A stretch of 64,000 nt of DNA from Lachnospiraceae bacterium (GTDB lineage: Bacteria > Bacillota > Clostridia > Lachnospirales > Lachnospiraceae). The notes below the pieces were generated by a model. That model had not been told where the DNA came from and made no database searches. It saw only the letters and a program-made list of their open reading frames with translations. This document shows, piece by piece, positions 1-25,061 of the stretch. A program made the translations under genes and the position numbers. The stretch's first letter is position 1; each line of letters opens with the position of its first letter. The DNA lies in contig JAEENO010000020.1 of NCBI GenBank assembly GCA_016283755.1, positions 84,156 to 148,155 on the forward strand, written 5' to 3'.

Positions 1-2405
1 ACTGCAGGTCTATATTCAAATGGAAGTATTATTGTAAAGGTTGTACCGACTTCCAATTCGGAAGCAACCTCTATCGTACCGTCCATCTCTGTAACAATTC
101 TATTTACAAGTGCAAGTCCTAAGCCCGTTCCCGAGTACTTATCCGAGAACATATTGCGTTCCTGCGCAAACGGCTCATAAATCTTTTGTAAAAAGCTCCT
201 GCTCATACCGCAGCCGTTATCCTTAATTGTAATTTTATCCCGACAATTGGTATCGGATATAAAGTTTCTTTCAATCTTAAGGGATACTTTACCGTATTCC
301 CCGGTAAACTTATAAGCATTACTGAGAAGATTCATAAGTACCTGTCTGCATCTTGTCGCATCGGCAAATACCTCGACGTGCTTATTCTGATCTTTTACGT
401 ATTCAATTGAAAAATCTATCTTCTTCTCCGCCATCTGCGGCGCAATAATTTTCTCAACCGTAGACAGTAATTCCGGAGTTCTTATCCAATCTCTGTTAAG
501 TTCAAGCTTACCGCTCTCTATACGGCTCATATCAAGGATATCATTAATAAGTGAAAGAAGGTACGAACTTGAAGTCTCTATATCATTAAGGTTTGACATA
601 ATTGAGGCTCTGTCAATCGTCTTATTCTCTTCAATCTCAGACTGCGCAATCTTCGTCATTCCGATAATAGCATTCATCGGAGTTCTTATCTCATGCGACA
701 TGTTAGACATGAAGTCTGTCTTCGCAGCAACCGCGAATTTGAGCTTTTCATTGGCTGTAATAAGTTCCTCATTCTTCGTGCTTAACTGCTTGGCAAGATA
801 TCTTTTATTCGTGAGGTACAGATAGAAAAGATATAGAATTGCCATGAAAAAAACTGCTATAATAAGAAGCTGCATCGAGTACTTACGAAGGAATGTCGTA
901 AAATCCGCCTTGGATGCTGCAGAAAGCTGATATATCGTAGTTGTCTCAACAAGCGATTCATCGTCAAATGTAACTATACACTTATTAAGAATCGATGAAA
1001 GTACGGAATTATCTGTATTTTTCTCAAACGCAAAGAACATATCACCTGTACCGATATATGCGTTTACGAATTCGACACTCGGGTATTTGCTTCCGATCAA
1101 AACCGATGCAACTCTGTAATCTATATACGCATAACTTATCTTACCGTGAATAAGACTTTCCATGCACTTGTCCATACTTTTAAAATATACAAGCGATGAA
1201 TGTTTGAATTCATTTGTAAGATTTGCTTCAATACTGTTACTCGGTGATACAATTCCGATAACTACCTTACCGTCAAGAGGTACATTTAAGTTACGCCTTT
1301 TTACGAGAAACGCAGTAGTTGACATAACAGGCTCAGACAGGTAATATCCCGGCATAACGGATTCATTCTCAAGAAGAATCATTCCCGATATGAAATCCGC
1401 CTTATGATTCTCATCCGCATTCTTAAAAGTAAGGCCCGTAAGCTCACTTATCATATTAAGGATATCCACCTGGATACCTTTTTCTTCATCATCTTTGACA
1501 GTGTAATACGGCATACCGTTATTATACTGCTGAACATATATCACGGGATTCTGCTTAATGAATTCCGCTTCTTTTCTCGTAAAGTTAGGAACGGCTCCCT
1601 GAAGCTTCTTGCCGAAGTATTTACTGTCAAGTTCGGCTCTGAAGTATGGGTTAACCATCAATATATCAAATAATGCCGAATTAAACGCCTGCATCAATTC
1701 TTCATTTCCCTTATAAGTCATGGCATACAAAGGCTCATTATAGCCTTCATATACACGCTTAAAATACGGTCTTACTCCCATTTCTGTAGAGAAAACCGCA
1801 TCGACGTTACCGGCTCTTAATTCATTATATGCATCAGAAATCGAAGTAAATATAAAAGGACTATAGTTAAATCCATTATCCGAAGCTAATTCATTCAGCA
1901 CATGCTCGCCTATGGAATTCTTAAGATATGCAATTTTCATGTTATTAAACGACTTGAAATCATCGTAATAATAACGGGTATCATCGCTTCTTACATAGAT
2001 TCTGGATGTCTCATATCCAACAATATCATTGGAATAGATAAATCTTTCCGTTCTCTCTTCCACATACGAAGCGTTAAGAACAAGGTCTATCTCATGCTTT
2101 TCAAGCTTTTCAAGTAAAACTGACCACTCGTCAACAACATAATTATATTCCCAGCCTGTCTTTTCAGCAATCTTCTGTAAGAATTCAGGAACGTAACCAT
2201 AGTAACCGGTCTCTGTTTCGGAGAAAAACGCTGACTCATAATTAACAACACCGATATTTACAATCTTCTTGCTGTACCTGGAAAAACCTTCACCCGCAAC
2301 AGCATAACTCGCCATCATGCCGACGCATAATGTAAGCATCGTCACGATGGCAAGTATTGATTTAATATTCACTTCGTTTTTCTTTAACCGAAACAAGAAT
2401 TTCAT
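1..2405 (-). CDS. Sensor histidine kinase with two N-terminal periplasmic solute-binding (SBP_bac_3-like) modules, EvgS/BvgS-like; C-terminal part cut by window edge
   Basis: Manual minus-strand translation: MKFLFRLKKNEVNIKSILAIV..., signal peptide, NIGVVNYESAFF..YVPEFLQKIAEKTGW SBP start, TM, then HisKA FMSNMSHEMRTPMNAIIGM and HATPase NLLSNAYKFT / DNGCGM / GTGLGLALV; absent from the ORF track because it runs off the edge. Confidence 0.85.
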   Translation of the reverse strand, partial: MKFLFRLKKNEVNIKSILAIVTMLTLCVGMMASYAVAGEGFSRYSKKIVNIGVVNYESAFFSETETGYYGYVPEFLQKIAEKTGWEYNYVVDEWSVLLEKLEKHEIDLVLNASYVEERTERFIYSNDIVGYETSRIYVRSDDTRYYYDDFKSFNNMKIAYLKNSIGEHVLNELASDNGFNYSPFIFTSISDAYNELRAGNVDAVFSTEMGVRPYFKRVYEGYNEPLYAMTYKGNEELMQAFNSALFDILMVNPYFRAELDSKYFGKKLQGAVPNFTRKEAEFIKQNPVIYVQQYNNGMPYYTVKDDEEKGIQVDILNMISELTGLTFKNADENHKADFISGMILLENESVMPGYYLSEPVMSTTAFLVKRRNLNVPLDGKVVIGIVSPSNSIEANLTNEFKHSSLVYFKSMDKCMESLIHGKISYAYIDYRVASVLIGSKYPSVEFVNAYIGTGDMFFAFEKNTDNSVLSSILNKCIVTFDDESLVETTTIYQLSAASKADFTTFLRKYSMQLLIIAVFFMAILYLFYLYLTNKRYLAKQLSTKNEELITANEKLKFAVAAKTDFMSNMSHEIRTPMNAIIGMTKIAQSEIEENKTIDRASIMSNLNDIETSSSYLLSLINDILDMSRIESGKLELNRDWIRTPELLSTVEKIIAPQMAEKKIDFSIEYVKDQNKHVEVFADATRCRQVLMNLLSNAYKFTGEYGKVSLKIERNFISDTNCRDKITIKDNGCGMSRSFLQKIYEPFAQERNMFSDKYSGTGLGLALVNRIVTEMDGTIEVASELEVGTTFTIILPFEYRPA

Positions 2406-22127: not shown

Positions 22128-24092
22128 TTACTTGTTATCCTGCTGTACAGTTACTTCTCTTATTGCCTTGGTACGAATCTCTTCGCAGATTCTGTCGGCA
22201 AATTCCTTAACTGACATCTTGCCTTCATCACCGGCAAATCTTGATCCTACTGCTACTTCGCCCGCAGCTTCTTCCTGCTCACCGACAACAAGTCTATACG
22301 GGATTCTGTCAAGACGAGCTTCTCTTATCTTAAATCCGATCTTCTCGGAACGCGCATCAACTTCAGTCTCAATGCCGCGAGCACGAAGCTCAGCACATAC
22401 CTTATCCGCATAATCAATATACTTATCGGATATAGGAAGAATTCTTACCTGTTCAGGGCAAAGCCATGTAGGGAAGTTACCTGCATAGTGCTCGATAAGC
22501 CAAGCAAGGGTTCTTTCATAGCATCCCATTGATGTTCTGTGAATAATGTAAGGGCGAACCTTATCACCGTTCTGGTCGATGAAGTACATATCGAACTTTT
22601 CTGCGGAAGCGCAGTCAAGCTGAACCGTAATCATTGTATCTTCCTTGCCGTATACATTTTTAGCCTGAATATCAATCTTAGGGCCGTAGAAAGCTGCTTC
22701 TCCGTCTGCCTCTGTAAACGGAACACCCTTCTCAATAAGAACTTCTCTTAAAGCACCCTGTGTTCTGTTCCAATAGTCTTCGTCACCGATATACTTCTCT
22801 GTATTGGCAGGATCCCACTTTGAGAGTCTGTATGTAACGTCATCCTGTAAACCAAGTGTAGAAAGAATATGGTAAGCCAAGTCGATACAGTTCTTTAACT
22901 CCTGCTCTGCCTGGTCAGGACGGATAATGTTATGTCCTTCAGATATAGTAAACTGACGAACTCTTGTAAGTCCATGCATTTCTCCGGAGTCTTCGTTTCT
23001 GAAAAGTGTTGAAGTCTCGCTCATTCTATACGGAAGGTCTCTGTAGGACTTCTGCTCATTCTTATATACAAAGTACTGGAACGGACATGTCATAGGACGA
23101 AGTGCCATACATTCCTTGTCTTCCGGATCGCCAAGAACGAACATTCCGTCAAGATAATGATCCCAGTGACCCGAAATCTTGTAAAGGTCTGACTTAGCCA
23201 TTAACGGAGTTCTTGTTCTTACGTAGCCCCACTCTCTGTCCTCAAGGTCCTCAATCCATCTCTGGAGCTTCATAATCATCTTGGTTCCCTTAGGTGTAAA
23301 GAGAGGAAGTCCCTGTCCGATTACATCTACAGTTGTAAATAATCCCATTTCGCGGCCAAGCTTATTATGGTCACGACGCTTAGCATCTTCAAGCTGCTCA
23401 AGGTAAGCATCAAGGTCTTCCTTGTTATCAAATGCAGTACCGTAGATTCTCTGAAGGCGCTCTCTCTTCTCATCGCCTCTCCAATATGCCATTGAAGAAG
23501 AGATAAGCTTAAAAGCTTTAACTCCCTTGGTATTCATAAGATGAGGGCCTGCGCAAAGATCTGTGAAGCCTTCTCCCTGGCTGTAGAAAGAGATAATTGC
23601 ATCTTCAGGAAGATCACGAATAAGCTCTACCTTATATGGCTCCTTTAAATCTTCCATCTTCTTGATTGCTTCTGCTCTCGGAAGTTCGAAGTATGTAAGA
23701 CGCTCACCCTTCTTAATAATCTTCTTCATTTCCTTTTCGATTTCGTCAAGGTCTTCTCTGGAGAATGGCTCAGTATCGAAATCATAATAGAATCCCGTAT
23801 CGATTGCAGGTCCGATTGCTACCTTAACATTAGGACGTACAACCTTAACAGCCTCAGCCAAAATATGTGATGCTGTATGGCGAAGAACTCTTAAACCTTC
23901 AGGGTCCTTAGCTGTAAAGATTCTTAAAGTGCAATCCTTATCTATAACTGTTCGAAGATCGCACACCTTGCCGTCGATTTCAGCTGCACATGCCGCACGG
24001 CCGAGACCTTCGGAGATATCCATTGCGATATCGAATGCCATTTTCTTTTCCTGATACTCTCTTACAGAGCCATCAACCAATGTAATCTTCAT
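22128..24092 (-). CDS. thrS: Threonyl-tRNA synthetase
   Basis: TGS domain, HTASHILAEAV, GHWDHY, RPMTCPFQYF, class II motifs, C-terminal anticodon-binding domain. Confidence 0.97.
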   Translation of the reverse strand: MKITLVDGSVREYQEKKMAFDIAMDISEGLGRAACAAEIDGKVCDLRTVIDKDCTLRIFTAKDPEGLRVLRHTASHILAEAVKVVRPNVKVAIGPAIDTGFYYDFDTEPFSREDLDEIEKEMKKIIKKGERLTYFELPRAEAIKKMEDLKEPYKVELIRDLPEDAIISFYSQGEGFTDLCAGPHLMNTKGVKAFKLISSSMAYWRGDEKRERLQRIYGTAFDNKEDLDAYLEQLEDAKRRDHNKLGREMGLFTTVDVIGQGLPLFTPKGTKMIMKLQRWIEDLEDREWGYVRTRTPLMAKSDLYKISGHWDHYLDGMFVLGDPEDKECMALRPMTCPFQYFVYKNEQKSYRDLPYRMSETSTLFRNEDSGEMHGLTRVRQFTISEGHNIIRPDQAEQELKNCIDLAYHILSTLGLQDDVTYRLSKWDPANTEKYIGDEDYWNRTQGALREVLIEKGVPFTEADGEAAFYGPKIDIQAKNVYGKEDTMITVQLDCASAEKFDMYFIDQNGDKVRPYIIHRTSMGCYERTLAWLIEHYAGNFPTWLCPEQVRILPISDKYIDYADKVCAELRARGIETEVDARSEKIGFKIREARLDRIPYRLVVGEQEEAAGEVAVGSRFAGDEGKMSVKEFADRICEEIRTKAIREVTVQQDNK

Positions 24093-24113: not shown

Positions 24114-24335
24114 GAAAAAAGTCCCTTGCATATGCAAGGGACGTAATATACGCGGTTCCACCCAAGTTGCCATTCTCATGGCCTCTCAAACTGACTATAA
24201 CGTAGTCACCGGACCTTATTAGGGCCGCTCTGAGGTGGTCTTCGGACGAATGTCTATTAAATCGCTCTCAGCATTCACGATTCTCTCTGTCATATACTTA
24301 GACGTCTTACTCTTCTCATCAACGCGTTGGTTTGT
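24114..24335 (-). promoter_or_regulatory. T-box leader of thrS (antiterminator plus terminator)
   Basis: Minus-strand T-box TGGGTGGAACCGCG (24151-24164); terminator GTCCCTTGCATATGCAAGGGAC + T-run (24114-24142); candidate ACC (Thr) specifier in GAAGACCACC; 5' boundary approximate. Confidence 0.88.
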
Positions 24336-24373
24336 TAAATTATTTGAATGATAACGCAATTGCGCTTCGTTGT

Positions 24374-24548
24374 CAAGTGCCACTTGGCTATTCTTTGAGC
24401 TTCGGTTCGCATAGCGAACTCGAATCCTGCTTCGCAGGACAAGTGCCGCACTTTTGTGCGTCACTTGGCTATTCTTTGAACTTCGGCGCACATAGTGCGC
24501 TCGAATCCCACTGCGTGGGACAAGTGTCATACTGCGTATGCCACTTGG
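24374..24548. repeat. Tandem ~80-81-bp repeats with covarying hairpins
   Basis: CACTTGG anchors at 24381, 24462, 24542; CAAGTG at 24374, 24440, 24521; three hairpins per unit with different but perfectly paired stems. Confidence 0.9.
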
Positions 24549-25061
24549 TTATTTACCGCAACAATGCTTATATTTCTTACCGCTGCCGCATGGACACGGA
24601 TCGTTTCTTCCGACTTTCTTACCTACACGGATAGTTGTGGATTCTTTCTGCTCCTTATAGAGAGCTTTTCTCTCATCCTCGGTAAAAATGCTTTCCCACT
24701 GCGGAAGTCCGTATAACCAGTCAGCCTTAGCTCTTACCATATTCTTATATAGCTTAGCCTTATCAAACTTCAATGAAACAACCGTATCCTCTTCCATTGT
24801 GTCAATCGGGTTAGGTGTTACAAGCGAATCATCTATTCCATCAAGAAAACCAACCATTGCCATAAGTTCGATTCCGAACTTATCTGCAAGTTCCTTAACG
24901 GTTCCCTTTACTTCCTCATCAGGATTCGTAAGAAGCTTCTCATATACGGAAGTCTCCTTCTCAAAATATCTTCTCCAGAAGCTCTGCAACTCATTTCTGT
25001 CTGCCTGCTCATTATAAGCCATGCTTCTCCACTGTTCCAATAATGCCATAATGCACCTCAT
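24549..25061 (-). CDS. SEC-C metal-binding motif protein
   Basis: C-terminal [21 protein letters not shown]. Confidence 0.85.

Follow-up and report, generated by a model that had tools for sequence, protein, structure and literature searches.

A dispersed, structure-defined element of rumen Lachnospiraceae, present as truncated tandem copies between the SEC-C and thrS genes

The window analysed here is a stretch of 64,000 nucleotides from a Lachnospiraceae bacterium (assembly GCA_016283755.1, contig JAEENO010000020.1), in which a SEC-C motif gene and thrS are both coded on the minus strand. The interval between the SEC-C stop codon and the promoter-like sequence and T-box leader of thrS holds two 80/81-nt units and a stub (Table 1). 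A preliminary description, made from the sequence of the window, had reported tandem units of three hairpins each at this position, together with a partial left copy devoid of the nested hairpin. Both observations are confirmed, every stem listed there being found at positions 24374-24552 and the partial copy reading CAAGTG-G-CACTTG on the minus strand. This strand is best taken as the reading direction of the array. RNA folding of the minus-strand array yields -84.6 kcal/mol, with a z-score of -7.3 against dinucleotide shuffles (0 of 200 as good), and the plus strand reaches a z-score of -5.7. In this direction, each unit consists of hairpin 1 (CAAGTG...CACTTG with an inner stem), hairpin 2 (TCC...GGA) and hairpin 3 (TTCG...CGAA). 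The three-hairpin frame proposed earlier holds as far as these hairpins go, but it missed a closing helix, P1, formed by AAC/GTT in one unit and AGC/GCT in the other. Because P1 encloses the three hairpins, each window unit is predicted to form a four-way junction. It likewise missed a leading fourth hairpin (hp0), which full members of the family carry upstream and which is absent from the window copies.

Table 1. Features of the SEC-C/thrS interval, in window coordinates
Feature	Coordinates	Strand	Remarks
SEC-C motif gene, directly upstream (context)	24549..25061	-	C-terminus CCGK-stop here, CCGKNA-stop in three array-free orthologues
Unit 2, 5' linker GTAAATAAC	24548..24556	-	Includes SEC-C stop TAA (24549-24551) and P1 5' strand AAC; motif GTAAATAAC/GTATATAAC recurs in other copies
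Unit 2, hairpin 1 (CAAGTG G CATAC GCA GTATG A CACTTG)	24521..24547	-	
Unit 2, hairpin 2 (TCCCAC GCA GTGGGA)	24506..24520	-	Family core TCC NN C GNA G NN GGA
Unit 2, hairpin 3 (TTCG A GCGCAC TAT GTGCGC CGAA)	24482..24505	-	
Unit 2, P1 3' strand GTT	24479..24481	-	Partner AAC 24548-24550; P1 paired in 33/34 copies
Inter-unit linker	24468..24478	-	Terminal AGC is the unit 1 P1 5' strand
Unit 1, hairpin 1 (CAAGTG A CGCAC AAAA GTGCG G CACTTG)	24440..24467	-	
Unit 1, hairpin 2 (TCCTGC GAA GCAGGA)	24425..24439	-	
Unit 1, hairpin 3 (TTCG A GTTCGC TAT GCGAAC CGAA)	24401..24424	-	
Unit 1, P1 3' strand GCT	24398..24400	-	Partner AGC 24468-24470; covaries with unit 2 AAC/GTT
Third-unit stub, hairpin 1 outer stem only (CAAGTG G CACTTG)	24374..24386	-	Last bases overlap the -35-like TTGACA
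thrS promoter-like TTGACA-17-TATCAT (context, outside the element)	24348..24376	-	Consensus match by eye; equal spacing in the G006 orthologue
thrS T-box leader (context)	24134..24331	-	RF00230, 102.7 bits
thrS (context)	22128..24092	-	

All cells of the two window units (100%) are paired, as claimed for them despite their differing stems: 7 of 27 pairs differ between the units, all on both sides and none on one side alone, and 8 of 30 pairs differ, all still paired, when the closing helix is counted. The statement that the stems change completely was nevertheless overstated. The tips alone differ (20 of 40 columns), whereas CAAGTG/CACTTG, TCC/GGA and TTCG/CGAA, the outer parts, do not vary between the units (0 of 26 columns). 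Among 13 linker columns the sole difference is the base coupled to P1, and the tips vary significantly more than the linker (p = 0.002-0.008).

The promoter-like sequence between the array and the T-box suggests that thrS may have its own promoter, and the stub repeat runs into it. Comparison of orthologous SEC-C loci, which had been proposed as a check, revealed that the array is missing at all four loci compared (G006, with a 93% identical protein, G005, G003 and G001). Given the shortened C-terminus of the window SEC-C protein relative to three orthologues, the insertion probably replaced its last codons, and the linker of the element would now supply the stop. The spacer after the SEC-C stop of G006 (L084) has, without the element, other short hairpins (CGCAC-GTGAA-GTGCG and GCGG-AGTCA-CCGC), which are possibly decayed remnants of the element or unrelated to it. 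In the thrS T-boxes of the window genome (G000) and G006, the two stems counted present three double and two wobble changes, too few to decide the mode of change.

BLAST searches of the array against its own genome, plasmids and phages revealed no other real copy in the genome and none in plasmids or phages, and a first pattern built on the window-specific anchor CACTTGGCTATTCTTTGARCTTCGG, which is outside the conserved part of the family, matched the window copies only. A covariance model of the two window units (R1), as suggested in the preliminary description, yielded matches in two species of the genus under permissive search. The R1 match in G177 was rejected as an unrelated terminator-like hairpin. 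R1, built on two units, was too narrow, and comparison of its matches defined the true core, TGTCC NN CG N AG NN GGATT. Further searches with the core pattern, with models R2 and R3, and with ATATGGCA-N(4-34)-TGTCCNNCGNAGNNGGAT in a scan of 84,980 genomes, brought the family to about 35 real copies in about a dozen Lachnospiraceae genomes, mostly rumen MAGs, a carrier count in which some of our numbered genomes and the named MAGs are probably one record. The covariance models and the sparse pattern found three loci in the window genome (C43, C26 and C27) in addition to the two window copies, and others in several genera. Carriers include the genus mates G003 and G006, the other Lachnospiraceae G160 (at least seven copies), G300, G242 and G230, and the MAGs RGIG3232, RGIG5105, RGIG6995, RGIG2768, SRR8387716_bin.19, SRR12081303_bin.78 and RUG14895.

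Under the stricter filters of the large searches, the element was found in only a handful of 397 family genomes sampled, and the window genome was the sole carrier in a 391-genome sample of the class. Two patterns gave 0 matches in viral contigs, and the element matched no Rfam 15 family, either in the window or in 13 loci at E <= 1. Several candidates were judged to be chance matches, either on inspection as coding DNA or for lack of P1 or the core (L048-L052, L067, L070, L078 and L095) or from weak scores (L033-L036, L040, L096 and L097). Homology to purine riboswitches, proposed on the common GATATGG, was dropped, as topology differs and Rfam gave no match. With only about 15 scattered letters conserved, the family is missed by ordinary similarity searches and is defined by its structure. 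Together, these results show that the window holds two truncated copies in tandem, and a stub, of a small dispersed element whose family, so far undescribed, roams among rumen Lachnospiraceae. The preliminary description had considered an undescribed mobile family possible, and had named a lack of other copies, or stems drifting out of pairing, as evidence against its reading; neither was found, and the family presents lineage-specific insertions in addition to its non-Rfam status.

A full copy spans about 110 nt and comprises hp0, a linker, and hairpins 1-3 on the short closing helix P1. Hp0 has an ATCA, ATCG, TTCA or ATAAA loop, often with a GNA/GNA internal loop near its base, and is followed by the linker (C)GATATGG or GTAWATAAC. 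Hairpin 1 has CA...TG ends; hairpin 2 is usually TCC NN C-GNA-G NN GGA, and sometimes TGC-GAA-GCA or a form with GA/GA; and hairpin 3 presents TT...AA or TC...GA ends, often with a GA/GA tandem, followed by CC or GTT. Since the end of the linker pairs with the bases 3' of hairpin 3 to form P1, the predicted fold is a four-way junction without free joint bases, preceded by hp0. Most copies have GG/CC as P1, the others AAC/GTT, AGC/GCT, GAC/GTC or GCC/GGC. No search model included P1 pairing, yet 33 of 34 copies have a Watson-Crick innermost pair, where shuffling gives 23.3 (at most 29), and this pair covaries (G-C 27, C-G 6). The GNA triloops and the GA/GA and GNA/GNA internal loops are specific to the sense strand (G-A 23 vs T-C 5). 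Tandem copies follow a period of about 107-119 nt with hp0, and of 80-81 nt without it, as in the window. The U-run of an intrinsic terminator is missing, with hp0 followed by CGATATGG/GTAAATAAC and hairpin 3 by CC/GTT. That hp0 belongs to the element follows from the in-frame insertion and the common borders of dispersed copies described below; its origin as a foldback from the target gene, considered where the end of RidA serves as hp0 arm (L019), was set aside. In G300, two successive, strongly diverged units (L063, ~1395-1583, plus strand) lie between rplJ and rplL, downstream of an L10 leader, and separate the presumed genes for ribosomal proteins L10 and L7/L12.

Placement relative to genes is highly consistent. 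All assignable copies (~28 of 28) stand in sense orientation directly after their upstream gene, although independent cases of orientation number perhaps 22, as some loci are orthologous or locally duplicated. At the GC-rich loci L047, L061 and L066, where ORF calls overlapped, the frame with a recognisable protein end was taken as the upstream gene. In most assignable copies hp0 starts at the stop codon or a few nt away, and in a few the stop codon overlaps hp0 or the linker. In G242, the element follows from ~1472 directly behind a tRNA-Pro (L093, 1394-1470, plus strand), indicating that a stop codon is dispensable for placement, while the occasional downstream gene in opposite direction indicates that the orientation follows the upstream gene. 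The genes preceding the element are unrelated to one another, encoding SEC-C, RidA, iron alcohol dehydrogenase, FliE, ATP synthase A, PFL, an ABC ATPase, NifU and SIS proteins, and no transposase was found among the ten upstream genes scanned. This identical architecture behind many unrelated genes contradicts the notion that the array serves the SEC-C/thrS locus as a local regulator or terminator. Its location immediately before the promoter-like sequence and T-box of thrS would fit such a role, but with hairpins that lack a U-run 3', no Rfam match and absence from the orthologous loci, we regard a local function as highly improbable.

Several copies bear the marks of insertion. Two G160 copies behind different genes (L064 and L065) have in common, from TGAGCGG on, 69 nt with one difference; their similarity extends to CGCGACCC and their flanks are unrelated. 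The L074a/L074b pair shows the same pattern. In L075 (JAFRSU010000030.1, minus strand, ~1342-1460), a radical SAM/SPASM gene of the TIGR04340 (ACGX) type is interrupted, with its reading frame intact, by a complete element: residues 4-192 of the protein match positions 2-190 of TIGR04340 and residues 222-378 match positions 184-340, leaving an insertion of 36 residues, or 108 nt. At another locus (L021), about ten extra residues of FliE are read from the element. Terminal inverted repeats were not found, the AG[CT]GGA... and ...ACCC borders of dispersed copies being non-complementary, and no target-site duplication is evident at the borders of the two copy pairs. Direct repeats near L028 resemble a partial second unit.

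These findings also bear on whether the element might be an RNA inherited by vertical descent only, either a structured RNA gene or a regulator of riboswitch type with a specific ligand or target. Conserved junction letters, covariation and sense orientation are all expected of such an RNA, and the flgL-fliW intergenic copies of G000 and G006 (L026 and L042) are indeed orthologous, with seven double changes including P1. Near-identical copies nonetheless occur behind unrelated genes of one genome, the element is patchily distributed, one copy has inserted in frame into a coding gene, and the copies lie after, rather than before, genes, all of which makes this reading very unlikely. A partial second unit seems to follow the G006 flgL-fliW copy.

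Pairing is maintained throughout the family. In 27 copies, 99.4% of 465 cells in the three hairpins are paired, 136 cells carry changes on both sides where shuffling gives 38.6, and covariation is 0.541 against at most 0.075 when slid; the alignment is derived from the covariance model and leans towards structure, but the raw sequences show the same pairing. Seven related pairs (tandem, orthologous and paralogous) present 38 double, three wobble and three mismatch changes. This retention of pairing through double changes supports the earlier suggestion that either the structure is under selection or arms are replaced by template switching. Very few G-U pairs occur: about 880 pairs contain 10 G-T and 5 A-C, with no clear G-T excess, and in a control on the same DNA, although with small numbers, G-T accounts for 2 of 727 element pairs and 4 of 180 pairs of terminator-like hairpins. 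The differences between L064 and L065 concentrate in hairpins 2 and 3 (11 of 45 vs 1 of 69 elsewhere, p = 1e-4). In the paralogues L047 and L104, double changes are scattered and a neighbouring terminator changes in like manner. The suggestion that the repeats may be hypermutating is only partly borne out: the window tips vary more than the linker, and hairpins 2 and 3 of the two G160 copies more than the remainder of the element, but the other pairs are compatible with gradual compensation. In the tandem units of L046 (G300, 1387-1575, minus strand), which are nearly identical, the second hp0 has a new left arm (GTTCCGC) that matches the old right arm (GCGGAAC), as arm rewriting would produce.

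Selection at the RNA level normally tolerates G-U, so its rarity here leaves room for upkeep at the DNA level. On this account the element would be a DNA palindrome whose fold counts while the DNA is single-stranded, in transposition or replication, as in REP/RAYT systems or integron attC sites, with template switching between arms rewriting whole stems and any RNA being incidental. The predominance of double changes and the clustering of changes next to identical parts, in L064/L065 and in the window tips, speak for it. GNA triloops and sheared G-A motifs are, moreover, very stable in DNA as well. Template switching is documented as creating and maintaining perfect hairpins (PMC8794818). A purely DNA-level element should, however, be found both sense and antisense to the upstream gene, where all assignable copies are sense, and the scattered changes of L047/L104 resemble those of ordinary RNA selection. 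We therefore consider an exclusively DNA-level palindrome unlikely. Block renewal through template switching would explain the pattern of change in the window and in L064/L065, as would, equally, strict selection in large populations, gradual compensation and block renewal being inseparable in MAG sequences with one genome per species.

The element resembles several known systems in part. Rickettsia palindromic elements (RPE) are dispersed palindromes of ~100-150 bp able to insert into coding genes without breaking the reading frame (PMC10969869), as L075 does here. Many RPEs lie within ORFs, whereas nearly all copies here follow stop codons, and the present element, found in Lachnospiraceae, combines several hairpins in a four-way junction that has a GNA core and stems that vary. 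The CGTC tag reported for the R. conorii RPE (PMC3733652) is missing from the element borders read from dispersed copies, RPE being compared by description only. REP/REPIN sequences are small palindromic repeats 3' of coding regions, with sub-families carrying alternative complementary stem residues; REPs are single hairpins of 20-40 bp with a GTAG tag and frequent G-T stem pairs, reported from Proteobacteria, Cyanobacteria, Chloroflexi and PVC (PMC3733652). The placement after coding regions and the complementary stem variants are shared, but the element here is 110 nt long and has four hairpins, not a single stem-loop, and no fixed tag, GTAG occurring at the start of hp0 in a few copies only. 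Cotranscribed MITE-type elements (Correia/NEMIS and ERIC) are miniature, lack a transposase gene and form hairpins able to alter mRNA stability (PMC10969869). In size, hairpins and absence of a transposase gene the present element is similar; it differs in its multi-branch interior and in lacking terminal inverted repeats and an evident target-site duplication. Integron attC sites lie just after genes and work through their fold, with variable stem sequence and conserved landmarks. The element shares these traits, but its architecture and landmarks are unlike those of attC, and no integron or cassette array was seen here.

Taken together, the comparative evidence favors, with a probability of about 0.6, a non-autonomous mobile miniature element that is cotranscribed with its upstream gene and whose four-way-junction fold is kept by purifying selection. 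The element would be transcribed as the tail or an intercistronic part of the upstream mRNA, and the transcript would fold into the four-way junction, on which purifying selection could act through a host factor, a mobilising enzyme, or a harmless or stabilising effect in the mRNA; the constant junction letters may constitute the recognised part. Spread would be non-autonomous, and tandem duplication would multiply the element locally. RNA is indicated by the uniform sense orientation and by the G-A rich motifs of the sense strand, and the rarity of G-U suggests that copying at the DNA level contributes at least part of the mutations; these two views are compatible. A bolder proposal, which we deem rather unlikely, is that of a new class of structure-defined mobile elements that insert in sense behind genes, possibly by a step that involves RNA or is coupled to transcription, are recognised by their four-way junction instead of terminal repeats, and have their stems renewed in blocks by template switching. 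If so, sequence would diverge while the fold stays perfect. The in-frame copy in L075 shows that the element can also supply peptide segments to proteins. If selection acts on RNA, the family would represent a novel type of element at mRNA tails or between cistrons, and if template switching maintains the stems, its many related copies and orthologous pairs would provide a natural test system for how perfect hairpins keep their pairing.
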